A program made the position numbers and the translations under genes. Below, one piece after another: positions 14,560-18,987 of a stretch of DNA of 64,000 bases (positions within the stretch are counted from its first letter, which is position 1; the number at the start of each line of letters is the position of its first letter). This DNA is from Antiquaquibacter soli (GTDB lineage: Bacteria; Actinomycetota; Actinomycetes; Actinomycetales; Microbacteriaceae): positions 496,001 to 560,000 of the forward strand of contig NZ_JAUQUB010000001.1 in the NCBI RefSeq assembly GCF_030580675.1, read 5' to 3'. The notes under the pieces are model-generated. The model was not told where the DNA came from. It saw only the letters and a program-made list of their open reading frames with translations, and did no database searches.

Positions 14560-15507
14560 TCAGGGCTCCACCGCGCCGATGCGCTCCAGAGCGTCGACCA
14601 CGAGGCCCCAGAACTTGGCGTGGTCGAGGTTTCGGGCGACCTGGGTGGTGCAATCATCCGGAGCGGGGGCCCGGAAGTCGGCGACGGTCATCCCGAGTGT
14701 CAACGTGCCCGAGAGCTCGACGTCGAGCGGCACCCTCACCGTCTCCATCACCGAGTCGTCGATGACGTAGGCGACGGCGCACGGGTCGTGGACGGGCGGA
14801 TGCTCGAACCCCTGCTGATCCTTGTAGGTCTCGCCGAAGAACTCGAGGAGCTCGCCGACGAACCGGGCGGGCGCCGTGCCCACGGCAGCGATCGAGGCGG
14901 CGACCTCCGGCGTTGCGAGCGCCTCGTGGGTGAGGTCGAGCCCGACCATCGTGAGCGGCCAGGCCTCGTTGAAGACGATGTGAGCGGCCTCCGGATCGAT
15001 GACGATGTTGAACTCGCTCGTCGCCGACCAGTTGCCGACATTGACCCCGCCGCCCATCAGCACGACCTCGCGCACCCGGGAGGCGATGCGCGGCTCCTTG
15101 CGCACGGCGAGAGCGATGTTCGTGAGCGCGCCGGTCGGCACGAGGGTGATCTCGCCGGGCTCAGACGCCATGACGGTGTCGATGATGAAGTCGACGGCGT
15201 GCCGCGCGTCGAGTTCGAGGGTCGGCTCGGGCAGCGCGGGCCCGTCGAGTCCCGATTCGCCGTGGATGGACTCGGCCACCTCGACCTGCCGTACGAGCGG
15301 GCGGTGGGCGCCCCGGGCGAAGGGCACGCCCGTGATGCCGGCGACTCGCGCGACGGCGAGCGCGTTGCGCGTGACCTTCTCGATCGTCTGGTTGCCCATC
15401 ACCGTCGTCACGCCCACGAGGTCGATCTCCGGGTTTCCCCAGGCGAGCAGCATCGCGATGGCGTCGTCGTGTCCGGGGTCGCAGTCGAGGATGATCTTTC
15501 GAGCCAT
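14560..15507 (-). CDS. Ribonucleoside hydrolase
   Basis: This 315-residue inosine-uridine preferring nucleoside hydrolase family enzyme cleaves ribonucleosides to base and ribose. The calcium-binding cluster DCDPGHDD at residues 8-15 is intact. The central motif MGGGVNVGNWSATSEFNI and the late HDPCAVAY motif, with its metal-binding Asp, are present. The ATG at 15507 lies exactly 6 nt after a TACACT hexamer, which supports this start over the ATG 18 nt further upstream. It diverges from the SAH-hydrolase-like gene across only 62 bp holding a shared palindrome. Preference between purine and pyrimidine substrates cannot be told from sequence. Confidence 0.92.
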   Translation of the reverse strand: MARKIILDCDPGHDDAIAMLLAWGNPEIDLVGVTTVMGNQTIEKVTRNALAVARVAGITGVPFARGAHRPLVRQVEVAESIHGESGLDGPALPEPTLELDARHAVDFIIDTVMASEPGEITLVPTGALTNIALAVRKEPRIASRVREVVLMGGGVNVGNWSATSEFNIVIDPEAAHIVFNEAWPLTMVGLDLTHEALATPEVAASIAAVGTAPARFVGELLEFFGETYKDQQGFEHPPVHDPCAVAYVIDDSVMETVRVPLDVELSGTLTLGMTVADFRAPAPDDCTTQVARNLDHAKFWGLVVDALERIGAVEP

Positions 15508-15569
15508 GAGGCGAGTGTAGTGCATCCCTGCATATATGAAATCAGGATTCGTATGTGTAGAGTGCTGCC
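15508..15569. promoter_or_regulatory. Divergent leaderless promoters with a central 21-bp palindromic operator
   Basis: On the minus strand TACACT (15514-15519) ends 6 nt before the hydrolase ATG. On the plus strand TAGAGT (15558-15563) ends 6 nt before the ATG at 15570. Between them lies ATATGAA-N7-TTCGTAT (15534-15554), an interrupted palindrome in an AT-rich patch that would overlap both -35 regions. The nearby IclR-family regulator is the natural candidate to bind it, though this is inference. Confidence 0.6.
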
Positions 15570-16739
15570 ATGTCAGACCTCGTCTCCCGCGGAGCCGCTC
15601 GCGTCGAATGGATCCGCTCTCGAATGCCCCTGCTCGCCCGAACCCGGGCCGAGTTCGCGGCATCCCGCCCGTTCGCGGGCCACCGCATCGGCATGTCGCT
15701 GCACCTCGAGCCGAAGACCGCAGTGCTGCTCGAGACCCTCGCCGCGGGGGGCGCCGACATCGTCGCGACCGGCAACCACGGCTCCACCCAGGACGACATC
15801 GTCGCGTTTCTGCGCAGCCAGGGCATGGAGGTGCACGGAACCCGGGATGACTCGCTCGACCAGCACCACGCGAACGTGGCCGCGGTGGCCGCGGCGCGAC
15901 CCGACATCCTCCTCGACAACGGTGCGGACCTCGCCGCGCTCGCCGCAGCGGATCCGTGGCCCATCGTCGGCGGCACCGAGGAGACGACCTCCGGAGGCCT
16001 GCGTCTCCGCGACGAGCTCGAGGGGCGCATCCCGTTCCCGGTCATCGTCATCAACGACTCGCGGCTCAAGGCGATCGGCGAGAACCGGCACGCGGTCGGC
16101 CAGTCCGTCGTCGAGAGCTTCATGCGCATCACGAATCTGATGATCCCGGGTCGTCGCTTCGTGGTGGCGGGCTACGGCTGGTGCGGCAGCGGCGTTGCCC
16201 ACTACTTGCGGGCGCTCGGCGGCAAGGTCGCCGTCGTCGAGGTGGACGAGCTCAAGGCGTTCGAGGCGGCGATGGACGGCTTCCGGGTCGGCAGCCTCGA
16301 CGACCTCGCCGAGTGGGGCGAGGTGTTCATCACCGCTACCGGTCACCCCGGCGTCCTCACTGAGGCGTTCTTCCGGAGGGTCGCCGATGGCGCGGTGCTC
16401 GCGAACTGCGGACACTTCCCCTGGGAGATCGACGTCGCCGCCCTCCGCGCCTACTCCTCGGGAGCCACGCAGCTGGATGACGCGATCGAGCGCATCGACC
16501 TGCCGGACGGCCGCCACGTGATCCTCATCGCCGACGGGCGCATGTTCAACCTCGCCGGCCGCGAGCCCAAGGGCAACTCCCTCGAGTCGATGGATCTCGG
16601 CTTCCTCCTCCAGTCGCTCTCGCTCGAGCGGGTCGCCACGGATCCGGGCAGCCTCGTTCCGGGCGCCCAGCCCGTGCCCGACGACATCGACCGCGAGATC
16701 GCCCGCCGGATGCTCGCCGCGATGGCCGCGCACCGCTGA
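15570..16739 (+). CDS. Divergent S-adenosylhomocysteine hydrolase-like enzyme (possible S-inosylhomocysteine hydrolase)
   Basis: The 389 residues are shorter than typical SAH hydrolase (about 420-490). The NAD-binding motif AGYGWCGSGVA (residues 200-210) and HLEPKTA (45-51) match the archaeal/thermophile subfamily. EETTSGG (137-143), Lys167 in the NDSRLK segment and His282 in NCGHFPWEID are kept. Compared with classical SAH hydrolase, the catalytic Asp of DDGGD is Asn117, the Asp four residues after the Lys is Glu171, and the GHPS motif that packs on the adenine is absent (replaced around residues 333-337). The substrate may therefore differ. It shares a promoter region with a nucleoside hydrolase, its stop overlaps the IclR start, and adenosine deaminase follows. 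Confidence 0.75.
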   Translation: MSDLVSRGAARVEWIRSRMPLLARTRAEFAASRPFAGHRIGMSLHLEPKTAVLLETLAAGGADIVATGNHGSTQDDIVAFLRSQGMEVHGTRDDSLDQHHANVAAVAAARPDILLDNGADLAALAAADPWPIVGGTEETTSGGLRLRDELEGRIPFPVIVINDSRLKAIGENRHAVGQSVVESFMRITNLMIPGRRFVVAGYGWCGSGVAHYLRALGGKVAVVEVDELKAFEAAMDGFRVGSLDDLAEWGEVFITATGHPGVLTEAFFRRVADGAVLANCGHFPWEIDVAALRAYSSGATQLDDAIERIDLPDGRHVILIADGRMFNLAGREPKGNSLESMDLGFLLQSLSLERVATDPGSLVPGAQPVPDDIDREIARRMLAAMAAHR

Positions 16740-17410
16740 TGGCCGAGGCCGCCGCACCCAACCAGCCCGAGTACTCCGCCCCCGCCCTCGACAAGGGCCT
16801 CGACATCCTGGAGTTGCTCGCCGACCAGCCGGGCGGGCTCAGCCAGTCGGAGATCGCCGAGGCGGTGGGTCGCAGCGTCGGCCAGATCTTCCGAGTGCTC
16901 GCTACCCTCGAGCGCCGCGGCTACGTGGCGCGGGATCGGCAGTCGGGACTGTACTCGTTCTCGATGAAGCTCTTCGACCTCGCCCACCGGCACCCACCGC
17001 TGCGCGGGCTGATCGCAGTGGCGACGGCGCCGATGCGCGACCTCGCTGAGCGCGTCCGCCAGTCGTGCAACCTGAGCGTGCTCGACGCCGGTCGAGTGCG
17101 TGTCATCGCGCAGGTGGAGAGCCCGGCGGACTTCGGCTACCGGGTGCGCGTCGGCGCCCTCTTCGACGTCGAGTCGACGGCGACTGGCGCAGTGCTCACC
17201 TCGGGCGAGGCGGTGGTGCGGCCCGACGCCCTGCAGCCCGGGATCACCGATGTCGTGGTGCCGGTGCGCGATGCATCCGGCACCGTCGCCGCGCTGACCG
17301 TGCCCTACGTCGCGACCACCTTCAGCGCCACCCCGGAGGGCGACGTGGTCGCCGCCGCCACCGCGACCGCCTCAGCGATCTCCCGACTTCTCCGGGGCGA
17401 ACCCCGGTAG
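16739..17410 (+). CDS. IclR-family transcriptional regulator
   Basis: This 223-residue regulator has an N-terminal winged helix-turn-helix (about residues 16-75), with ALDKGLDILELLADQ and the recognition segment SQSEIAEAVGRSVGQIFRVL. A C-terminal effector domain follows that is shorter than usual (family members are commonly 240-270 residues). The ATG overlaps the stop of the SAH-hydrolase-like gene (TGATG). It probably controls the divergent promoter region at 15508-15569 in response to a nucleoside or related ligand, but the ligand is not evident. Its TAG stop is the first half of the -10-like hexamer of the adenosine deaminase gene. Confidence 0.88.
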   Translation: MAEAAAPNQPEYSAPALDKGLDILELLADQPGGLSQSEIAEAVGRSVGQIFRVLATLERRGYVARDRQSGLYSFSMKLFDLAHRHPPLRGLIAVATAPMRDLAERVRQSCNLSVLDAGRVRVIAQVESPADFGYRVRVGALFDVESTATGAVLTSGEAVVRPDALQPGITDVVVPVRDASGTVAALTVPYVATTFSATPEGDVVAAATATASAISRLLRGEPR

Positions 17411-17413
17411 ATT
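17408..17413 (+). promoter_or_regulatory. -10 element of the adenosine deaminase gene, using the IclR stop codon
   Basis: TAGATT begins with the TAG stop of the regulator gene and ends 6 nt before the ATG at 17420. A weak GGAG lies in the gap, so the gene could be translated from a leaderless transcript and also by read-through from upstream. Confidence 0.5.
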
Positions 17414-17419
17414 GGAGCC

Positions 17420-18541
17420 ATGAACGCGGCTGCCGACGAGTACCTGATGCCGGGGGGCGGAGCGAGCATCACCGCCCTGCCCAAGGTGTCCCTGCACGAC
17501 CACCTCGACGGCGGCTTGCGGCCGCAGACGATCATCGAGCTCGGCGAGGAGATCGGCCTCGAGCTGCCCGCGACGGATGCTCCGGCGCTCGCCGAGTGGT
17601 TCGCCGAGAAGAGCGACTCCGGGTCGCTCGTCGAGTACCTCAAGACGTTCGACATCACGACCGCGGTCATGCAGACTCAGCACGGTCTCGCCCGCGTGGC
17701 CCGCGAGTTCGTCCAGGACCTCGCCGCCGACGGAGTGATCTACGGCGAGATCCGCTGGGCGCCCGAGCAGCACGTCGCGCGCGGTCTCACCCTCGACCAG
17801 ACCGTCGAGGCGGTGCAGGAGGGGCTGGATCAGGGCGTCGAGGATGCCCGTGCCGCCGGCCACAGCATCCGCGTCGGCCAGCTCGTCAGCGCTATGCGCC
17901 ACGCCGACCGCGGCCTCGAGATCGCGGAGCTCGCGTCCCGCCACTACGGTCGCGGCGTGGTCGGCTTCGACATCGCCGGGGCGGAGGCGGGGTTCCCCGC
18001 CGGAAACCTGCGCGACGCGTTCGACTTCCTCGCGCAGCACTACATCCCCGCGACCGTGCACGCCGGTGAGGCCGACGGGCTCGACAGCATCCGGGGAGCC
18101 CTTTTCGACGGCCGCGCGCTTCGGCTCGGACACGGGGTGCGTCTCGCCGAGGACGTGCACACCGCTCGCGAGGACGACGAGAACACGTACGTCACCCTCG
18201 GCCCCCTCGCGCAGTGGGTCAAGGATCGCGAGATCGCCCTCGAGCTCTCGCCGTCGTCGAACCTGCAGACGGGCGCCATCGAGCAGTGGGGCGACGACCT
18301 CGTCGACCACCCCTTCGACCTGCTGTACCAGCTCGGGTTCCGCGTGACGGTCAACACCGACAACCGACTCATGAGCGCGACCTCGCTGAGTCGCGAGCTG
18401 TTCCTGCTCGCCGAGACGTTCGGCTACGACCTCACCGACCTCGCCGTCTTCCAGCTCAATGCGGCCGCGTCGACCTTCCTGCCGCTCGAGGACCGCGAGG
18501 AGCTCGCCGATCGCATCGCCACGGGCTTCGACGAGGCCTGA
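17420..18541 (+). CDS. add: Adenosine deaminase
   Basis: This 373-residue amidohydrolase converts adenosine and deoxyadenosine to inosine and deoxyinosine. The zinc ligands are His26 and His28 in SLHDHLDGG. The later motifs are TVHAGEADG (metal-binding His and catalytic Glu), LGHGVRLAED, and VNTDNRLMS, which carries the zinc-binding Asp. The length and motif order match the actinobacterial adenosine deaminase type. Whether it also deaminates SAH cannot be told from sequence, but the SAH-hydrolase-like neighbour makes the question relevant. PTS IIA and IIB genes follow within a few bases. Confidence 0.93.
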   Translation: MNAAADEYLMPGGGASITALPKVSLHDHLDGGLRPQTIIELGEEIGLELPATDAPALAEWFAEKSDSGSLVEYLKTFDITTAVMQTQHGLARVAREFVQDLAADGVIYGEIRWAPEQHVARGLTLDQTVEAVQEGLDQGVEDARAAGHSIRVGQLVSAMRHADRGLEIAELASRHYGRGVVGFDIAGAEAGFPAGNLRDAFDFLAQHYIPATVHAGEADGLDSIRGALFDGRALRLGHGVRLAEDVHTAREDDENTYVTLGPLAQWVKDREIALELSPSSNLQTGAIEQWGDDLVDHPFDLLYQLGFRVTVNTDNRLMSATSLSRELFLLAETFGYDLTDLAVFQLNAAASTFLPLEDREELADRIATGFDEA

Positions 18542-18543
18542 GC

Positions 18544-18987
18544 ATGAGCCTGCCCCCGCTCCCGGAGAGCGCGATCGTCATCGGCGCCACCGCCGACGAC
18601 TGGCGCTCCGCAGTGACCCTCGCGGCTGAGGCCCTCGCCGCGAGCGGCGCGGCGAAGCCCGAGTACGCGCGCGAGATGATCCGGATGATCGAGGAGCACG
18701 GCCCGTACGTCGTCATCGCTCCGGGCCTCGCGCTCGCCCACGCGCGCCCCGGGCCGACTGTGCTGCAGGATGGGCTGTCGATCGTCACCCTGCGGGAGCC
18801 GGTGCGGTTCGGGCATCCCTACAACGACCCCGTGTCGGTGATCCTGGGTCTGGCGATCGCGACCCCGGATGCCCACCTCGCGGCGGTCGCGGCCGTCGCC
18901 AACGTCTTCAACGACTCCTCGGCGATCGCCGATCTGGCGGCGGCGACCACCGTCGACGAGGTGCAGCGGATCATGGGCACCGCGTGA
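18544..18987 (+). CDS. PTS IIA component, ascorbate/fructose-type (PTS_EIIA_2)
   Basis: This 147-residue phosphocarrier has the probable phosphorylated residue His66 in APGLALAHARPG. The region around it (ARPGPTVLQDGLSIV) matches the UlaC/SgaA group. The ATG lies 2 nt after the adenosine deaminase stop, so the gene is in the same transcript, and its end overlaps the IIB start as GTGA. In a complete system it would pass phosphate from HPr to the IIB next door. No IIC permease gene is present in the neighbourhood, so the pair may serve an unlinked permease or act in regulation. Confidence 0.87.
   Translation: MSLPPLPESAIVIGATADDWRSAVTLAAEALAASGAAKPEYAREMIRMIEEHGPYVVIAPGLALAHARPGPTVLQDGLSIVTLREPVRFGHPYNDPVSVILGLAIATPDAHLAAVAAVANVFNDSSAIADLAAATTVDEVQRIMGTA

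Follow-up and report, generated by a model that had tools for sequence, protein, structure and literature searches.

An S-adenosylhomocysteine hydrolase-like gene of Antiquaquibacter soli in an apparently self-regulated cassette: a possible role in nucleoside catabolism

The S-adenosylhomocysteine (SAH) hydrolases (SAHHs) closest to the protein described here are the archaeal-type S-adenosyl/S-inosylhomocysteine hydrolases. In the available text on these enzymes, the base motif HxExK is the published fingerprint of chains preferring S-inosylhomocysteine (SIH), HxTxE(Q) is the SAH-type motif, and in P. furiosus Glu and Lys read the NH-C=O edge of hypoxanthine (PMC10978960). The consulted part of a mechanistic account has Asp131 giving a proton to C4', Lys186 acting on the 3'-oxygen, Glu156 and Asp190 holding the 2'-OH, and the main chain of His353 touching the base (PMC4647836). 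The uridine route of Corynebacterium consists of UriT, UriH and ribokinase, and no SAHH-like gene is named in the text available (PMC3350403). In this study, a 64,000-nucleotide stretch of the Antiquaquibacter soli genome (contig NZ_JAUQUB010000001.1, positions 496,001 to 560,000; the window) was analysed for an SAHH-like gene, termed type A, that is followed by a gene for an IclR-family regulator. Its sequence and surroundings suggest an inducible, NAD-dependent enzyme of nucleoside catabolism that acts on an oxo-base nucleoside and is encoded in a horizontally spread, self-regulated cassette; this is the reading we favour, with slightly less than even confidence.

The 389-residue window protein is placed in the adenosylhomocysteinase (AHCY) superfamily by its predicted fold and its family scores. 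The Pfam scan assigned it to the SAHH family above both cut-offs (PF00670, 140.6 bits; PF05221, 73.7 bits), and it passed the AHCY model NF004005 (374.1 bits, cut-off 275) while scoring below the cut-off of TIGR00936 (348.9 against 497.6) and of three other AHCY models. The AlphaFold model, built on an alignment of 14 rows, had a pLDDT of 89.8 and a pTM of 0.85, and Foldseek placed archaeal-type SAHHs on top (7r39 best, template-modelling score (TM) 0.89; 7r37, 0.88). Like the P. furiosus (7R37) and M. maripaludis (7R3A) enzymes, to which its fold corresponds at TM 0.88 and 0.89, the window protein lacks the 40-residue insert and has HxExK, the NAD domain, the catalytic Lys and the gate His. 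Unlike them, it has Asn for Asp, Glu for Asp near the 2'-OH, GNS for GHP with a two-residue insertion, and a shorter C-terminus, and its gene lies on the opposite side of a supported tree split and has an IclR gene alongside. The canonical AHCY of the same genome shares the superfamily, but has the base motif HMTVQTA and ordinary catalytic residues.

All of the motifs described in the initial annotation were present, namely HLEPKTA (45-51), DNGAD (116-120), a Glu after the catalytic Lys (K167, then E171-N172) and the missing GHP motif, the position of which holds PKGNS (333-337) with the insertion. The importance attached to these substitutions stood only in part. In the alignment with archaeal chains, N117 aligns with P. 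furiosus Asp128 and mammalian Asp131, and the role of that residue makes Asp to Asn the chemically telling change. In contrast, GAD is ordinary, as the archaeal chains 7r37 and 7r3a have DDGAD and only the second Asp to Asn is unusual, and the lost His side chain alone means little because the base contact of His353 is made by the main chain. E171 aligns with Asp190 near the 2'-OH. The protein retains H45, K167 (the Lys186 equivalent, at the 3'-OH) and, as gate His, H282. Of the residues expected in a functional SAH hydrolase, the window protein therefore has Lys186, with Asn for Asp131, Glu for Asp190 and HLEPK, an HxExK motif, for HxTxE(Q); the HxExK expected in an SIH hydrolase is present.

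The substitutions are a trait of the whole subfamily. An alignment of 123 proteins, with starts assigned by a simple rule, comprised 104 type A rows (24 from one genome set and 80 from a locus set, ten sequences occurring twice), 8 of type B, 2 of type V, 5 of type C and 4 further proteins; A, B and V together made up 114 rows with 104 distinct sequences. Type B was found in Salinibacterium and relatives and on Rhizobiaceae plasmids, and type V on plasmids of Vibrio and Photobacterium. Asn stood at the C4' Asp site (117) and at the GHP His site (336) in all 104 distinct A/B/V sequences, and Glu at site 171 in 103 of them (113 of 114 rows; L016 has Asp). His45 and Lys49 were present in all 114 rows, and site 47 was Glu in 110 and Asp, giving HxDxK, in four (L013, L124, L132, L139). 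Within the 104 type A rows, H45, E138 and H282 were constant and K167 was kept in 94. Ordinary catalytic residues were found in the canonical gene of the same genome (L001) and in a Paenibacillus plasmid protein (L158). The IQ-TREE tree (57 rows, midpoint root) gave long-branch warnings, including for the joins of V and B and for one type C row, and contained a branch with support 99/91 that puts A+B+V (42 rows) apart from all other rows. On the opposite side lay the SIH-preferring archaeal chains (Mma, Pfu), L158, the crenarchaeal, cyanobacterial and canonical rows, and type C; thus, a tree with archaeal SIH hydrolases, the check proposed for an SIH hydrolase, did not group the window protein with the SIH-preferring chains. 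Additionally, the L158 protein (L158:8956-10227, a Paenibacillus cellulosilyticus plasmid, after bshC) is an archaeal-type SAHH with HxExK and is perhaps an SIH-preferring enzyme in Bacillota. In Nonomuraea (L157:7246-10233), an archaeal-like HxTxE SAHH gene directly follows a canonical-type ahcY.

The SAHH-like gene apparently travels with its own switch. The IclR gene was directly downstream in 77 of the 80 loci (exceptions L107, L147 and L149), and the upstream regions have in common the palindromic consensus ATATGAA-N7-TTCATAT. The window copy was the only match within two mismatches in the window, 100 shuffles giving none, and the only site of its genome within one mismatch. In whole-genome scans at that threshold, 23 of 27 carriers had a single site, each just upstream of the gene, and four Salinibacterium genomes without type A (G004, G013, G020, G024) had none; a reversed-pattern control gave no site in 31 genomes. 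Upstream of the 80 loci, the palindrome occurred with at most two mismatches in 46, compared with 0 of 1511 random control windows (2 of 1511 with three mismatches). Nine further loci, all from Mesorhizobium, had a second form, TGCAAAA-N5-TTTTGCA, with at most one mismatch, a form that has no control. The loci without the IclR gene were far from the palindrome (8, 7 and 6 mismatches in L107, L147 and L149). These data suggest that IclR binds the palindrome and that the cassette, which combines a regulator gene of its own with a specific site in front of the SAHH-like gene, is self-regulated. An exact-seed inverted-repeat search found none, the window palindrome being imperfect, and no sigma-70 promoter or terminator match was obtained in 15300-18600. 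LysR-type genes adjoin the type B genes of rhizobia and the type V genes of Vibrio and Photobacterium (L153, L160, L193, L194, L155 and, from annotation, L156; the other five by eye), and the regulator may differ from subtype to subtype.

The cassette lies in a Microbacteriaceae nucleoside-salvage cluster, and the neighbours named in the initial annotation, a divergent nucleoside hydrolase gene (rih, across a 62-bp spacer), the IclR gene and the adenosine deaminase gene (add), were borne out by profile scores and open reading frames (Table 1). Across the 80 loci, rih was divergent beside the SAHH-like gene in 53 and add lay downstream in 55; in L124, L132 and L139, the SAHH-like/iclR pair was placed after add in the same cluster. 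Of the 27 genomes that lack type A, 13 have rih and add directly side by side and divergent, by gene coordinates; in the other 14, one of which (G040) has no add, rih is elsewhere or no close rih is present. In G048 and G049, whose type A copy is elsewhere, rih and add likewise adjoin at the empty site. Ten empty loci were read. Their spacers measured 29-69 bp, nine of them had TAGATT a short distance 5' of the add start codon, as in the window (TAGGTT in L229), and the palindrome was absent from all ten (best, five mismatches). The simplest reading is that palindromic operator, SAHH-like gene and iclR were inserted as a cassette between rih and add, although clean loss from the empty sites is possible. 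Since rih and add adjoin without the SAHH-like gene, their nearness in the window is most simply a result of insertion; a purpose-built SIH pathway of the three genes was rejected on this ground. In addition, a contig labelled as an Acidobacteria metagenome-assembled genome (L075) carries the cassette in a nucleoside locus resembling those of Microbacteriaceae and is probably mis-binned.

Table 1. Features of the SAHH-like locus (positions in the window)
Feature	Positions	Strand	Remarks
SAHH-like gene, type A, 389 aa	15570..16739	+	open reading frame and family profiles; H45-x-E47-x-K49, N117, K167, E171, N336
IclR-family regulator	16739..17410	+	start overlaps SAHH-like stop codon (TGATG)
Operator-like palindrome ATATGAA-N7-TTCGTAT	15534..15554		1 mismatch to consensus
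Nucleoside hydrolase rih (UriH-type)	14560..15507	-	UriH model 521.6 bits, cut-off 450; start ATG at 15507
Adenosine deaminase add	17420..18541	+	9 bp 3' of iclR; TAGATT leader shortly 5' of ATG

Type A was also found in Kaistia, Mesorhizobium and Paraburkholderia at 67-71% identity, which suggests that the gene moved between Actinomycetota and Pseudomonadota by transfer. Among 398 Pseudomonadota genomes, five matches had E below 1e-150 (one of them the centre), two lay at 1e-113 to 1e-115 and the next at 1e-76; by sequence, three of the top five were type A and two type B (L193, L194), and the next two were type V (L195, L196). In six of the 80 loci, all from Mesorhizobium, the gene was accompanied by a divergent sodium:solute symporter gene with a cytidine deaminase gene beyond. 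The Paraburkholderia locus L149 contained, in order, a nucleoside hydrolase-like gene (best RihC, 210.3 bits, below cut-off), a LacI-family regulator gene (best RbsR, 149.5 bits, below cut-off), the SAHH-like gene, the uridine transporter gene UriT (606.2 bits, passing the cut-off of 600) and a ribokinase-like gene (278.6 bits, below 299.65), and appears to be a uridine-utilisation-like locus. Together, these settings point to pyrimidine nucleosides. Overall, most of the subfamily occurs in nucleoside-catabolic surroundings. As in Corynebacterium uridine utilisation, there is a UriH-type hydrolase in the window and there are UriT, ribokinase-like, LacI-type and nucleoside-hydrolase-like genes in L149; unlike there, the window gene adjoins only the hydrolase. 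Neighbouring-gene names without profile-score support were read by eye, and by eye two Kaistia loci (L120, L126) showed, as a weak observation, the pair directly upstream of phosphonate (phn)-operon-like genes.

The arrangement of the cassette can be seen in the sequence itself, and its spread and self-regulation are deduced from that arrangement. In the proposed mechanism, NAD+ would oxidise the 3'-OH of the bound nucleoside, the step that is most likely because the SAHH fold, the NAD-binding domain and the ribose 3'-OH residues are kept in the window protein. The HxExK pocket would fit a base that presents an NH-C=O edge; this could be hypoxanthine or, if the neighbouring genes are a guide, uracil, whose edge is similar. 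Without the C4' Asp, the 4',5'-elimination of homocysteine would probably not proceed as it does in SAHH. Most likely, the enzyme would process an unusual oxo-base nucleoside taken in from outside: the compound might be converted to an ordinary ribonucleoside for the hydrolase or, alternatively, its base might be released through the 3'-keto intermediate, and IclR would turn the gene on when the compound is present. SAHH cleaves the N-glycosidic bond of 2'-deoxyadenosine via a 3'-keto form, according to the available text of one report (PMC6063907), and the consulted portion of Koeppl et al. reports that free nucleobase is formed as a by-product (PMC10978960). In a protein without the C4' acid/base, N-glycosidic cleavage could become the main reaction, or the sugar could be remodelled. 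A bolder version, which we consider rather improbable, is that the SAH-hydrolase fold has given rise to a new class of NAD-dependent enzymes for oxo-pyrimidine (uridine-type) nucleosides. By transient 3'-oxidation such an enzyme would cleave or remodel an unusual nucleoside; it would work with UriH-type hydrolases and would have spread from phylum to phylum together with an IclR switch of its own.

Several observations weigh against this nucleoside-catabolic reading. HxExK is the reported mark of SIH preference, and the nucleoside cluster occurs in related genomes without the gene, so its genes are weak as functional evidence. Four of the 27 carriers (G014, G049, G054, G105) had no palindrome at one mismatch or less in the whole genome, and in 25 of the 80 loci there was no match to either form of the palindrome within the set thresholds. 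Furthermore, a pyridoxal phosphate-type Cys/Met-metabolism gene (cystathionine-gamma-lyase/synthase-like) was nearby in four Agromyces loci (L100, L101 and L136 by profile score, L090 by eye), an O-acetylhomoserine sulfhydrylase-like gene was downstream in Glaciihabitans L131, and M. huakuii L151 had a divergent gene for the sulfur dioxygenase Blh (747.8 bits, cut-off 625); such neighbours would suit a sulfur-containing substrate better, but are weak evidence. A purely catabolic role does not explain the missing canonical ahcY in 14 of 24 carriers, and 3'-oxidation cannot easily be reconciled with the clade lacking the catalytic Lys, both of which are described below.

The best-surviving alternative, although an unlikely one, is that the enzyme hydrolyses SIH or another 5'-thioinosine to homocysteine or a thiol and inosine, which rih would cleave, SAH-type precursors being deaminated first. 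HxExK, which the available text makes a mark of SIH preference (PMC10978960), the second, canonical ahcY of the genome and the nucleoside-catabolism setting give part of this interpretation, the one proposed in the initial annotation, some support, as do the retained H45, K167 and H282, the add gene directly downstream and the sulfur-metabolism genes of the Agromyces loci, L131 and L151. Against it stand the Asn at the C4' Asp site in 104 of 104 distinct A/B/V sequences, the position of these types outside the archaeal SIH-preferring chains, the pyrimidine settings in Mesorhizobium and Paraburkholderia, and one clade under purifying selection without the Lys; moreover, the adjacency of add is most simply explained by insertion. 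For the deaminase step, a single amidohydrolase used as a query for an SAH deaminase (DadD type) gave a best score of 48.1 bits in the A. soli genome, and thus no close homologue of this query, an ADA-type add being present; the same query found no match at E 1e-3 in five carriers without canonical ahcY (G006, G010, G011, G012 and G016). An SIH hydrolase is possible, but is not the best reading.

A second alternative, which we consider improbable, is an NAD- and nucleoside-binding protein without catalysis, acting as a ligand sensor, perhaps with the co-translated IclR, or in another regulatory role. Animal AHCYL1/IRBIT offers a comparison for such a pseudo-enzyme. The catalytic Asp is lost throughout, the gene overlaps iclR stop to start, and the catalytic Lys is replaced by Thr in seven of 24 type A sequences (L003-L026), namely L016, L018-L022 and L025, all from Salinibacterium; six of these (not L016) also have D120G, N162D and S164N, and the five included in the tree form one clade (support 100/99). 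Pairwise ratios of nonsynonymous to synonymous substitution (dN/dS) in the Lys-less sequences were 0.048-0.105 for the 20 computable of 21 pairs, compared with 0.060-0.074 in the Lys-bearing sister group (6 pairs) and 0.117-0.255 in other Salinibacterium (15 pairs), dS being near saturation in several pairs. The palindrome had no mismatches in the six Lys-less genomes scanned out of seven (G006, G011, G016, G018, G021, G025). The Lys-less clade stays under strong purifying selection, and a decayed gene copy was rejected (dN/dS 0.05-0.26 in computable pairs, with the palindrome kept). A sensor is argued against by K167 in 94 of the 104 type A rows with H45, E138 and H282 in all, and by L147 and L149, which have the gene in nucleoside loci without IclR. 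The Lys-less clade is fully accounted for by none of the explanations.

A replacement SAH hydrolase, serving housekeeping SAH breakdown in Salinibacterium without canonical ahcY, appears quite doubtful. In the 34 genomes surveyed, type A was present in 24, of which 10 had canonical ahcY and 14 did not, whereas all ten genomes without type A had it (four of these carry type B). Of the 14, G037 has LuxS and MTAN, and G001, G021, G025 and G026 have type C with its amidohydrolase. In seven Salinibacterium genomes (G005, G006, G010, G011, G012, G016, G018; 99% complete), canonical ahcY, LuxS, MTAN and the type C partner were not found, six of the seven having a single PF01048 gene; in G009 and G048 (87% complete), LuxS was not found, and G009 has a sub-cut-off match to the MTAN model. 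However, a canonical ahcY, which the initial annotation had advised looking for, was found in the A. soli genome outside the window (G000:C1:586095-587525; PF05221 489.3 bits, against 62 for the window gene), and for this genome a role as the sole housekeeping SAHH was therefore rejected. Canonical ahcY was likewise present in all 14 carriers reached through loci (G109 being the same strain as G035); these canonical copies, like those in 10 of the 24 carriers above, also count in favour of the nucleoside-catabolic reading. In addition, four of the seven genomes (G006, G011, G016, G018) have the Lys-less version, the base motif is not of SAH type, and most losses fall in one clade, so that the counts are not independent. 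Finally, an NAD-dependent epimerase, in which 3'-oxidation would permit inversion at C2' or C4' and turn an arabino- or other epimer nucleoside into a ribonucleoside for the hydrolase, would suit the loss at C4' and the lengthened acidic side chain near the 2'-OH, and would agree with the presence of nucleoside hydrolase and ribokinase-like genes alongside, but its chemistry comes from analogy alone and it is very unlikely.

Type C genes form a separate observation. A type C SAHH-like gene stands beside amidohydrolase and ABC-transporter genes in L039-L042, L053 and L056 (G054, G057, G030, G043, G001, G025), and also in G021 and G026; some loci have a Cupin_5 gene as well. The amidohydrolase had matches above 550 bits in 8 of 30 genomes searched, identical to the eight with type C. 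Rows L039-L043 keep Asp131, the Lys and Asp190 and lack His55 and the gate His. Perhaps type C is a better candidate than the window gene for a route of SAH/SIH-like uptake and deamination. Cupin_5 (PF06172) was found near a type B gene (L160:11162-11650) and near a type C gene (L040:11954-12451).

In conclusion, passing the cut-off of the NCBI adenosylhomocysteinase model makes it likely that proteins such as this one are named adenosylhomocysteinase. A literature search of a limited collection found no paper linking adenosylhomocysteinase with nucleoside hydrolase and IclR, or with uridine, nucleoside hydrolase and ribokinase. The available text of a 2026 review describes the catalytic residues of SAHH as invariant throughout evolution (PMC13406329); in contrast, the present subfamily is mobile and apparently locally regulated in Actinomycetota and Pseudomonadota, with one fixed set of altered catalytic residues. 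How SAH is removed in Salinibacterium without canonical ahcY, LuxS and MTAN is a question that is now directly testable. If the type A enzymes act on other nucleosides, a new nucleoside chemistry would lie hidden beneath a routine annotation.

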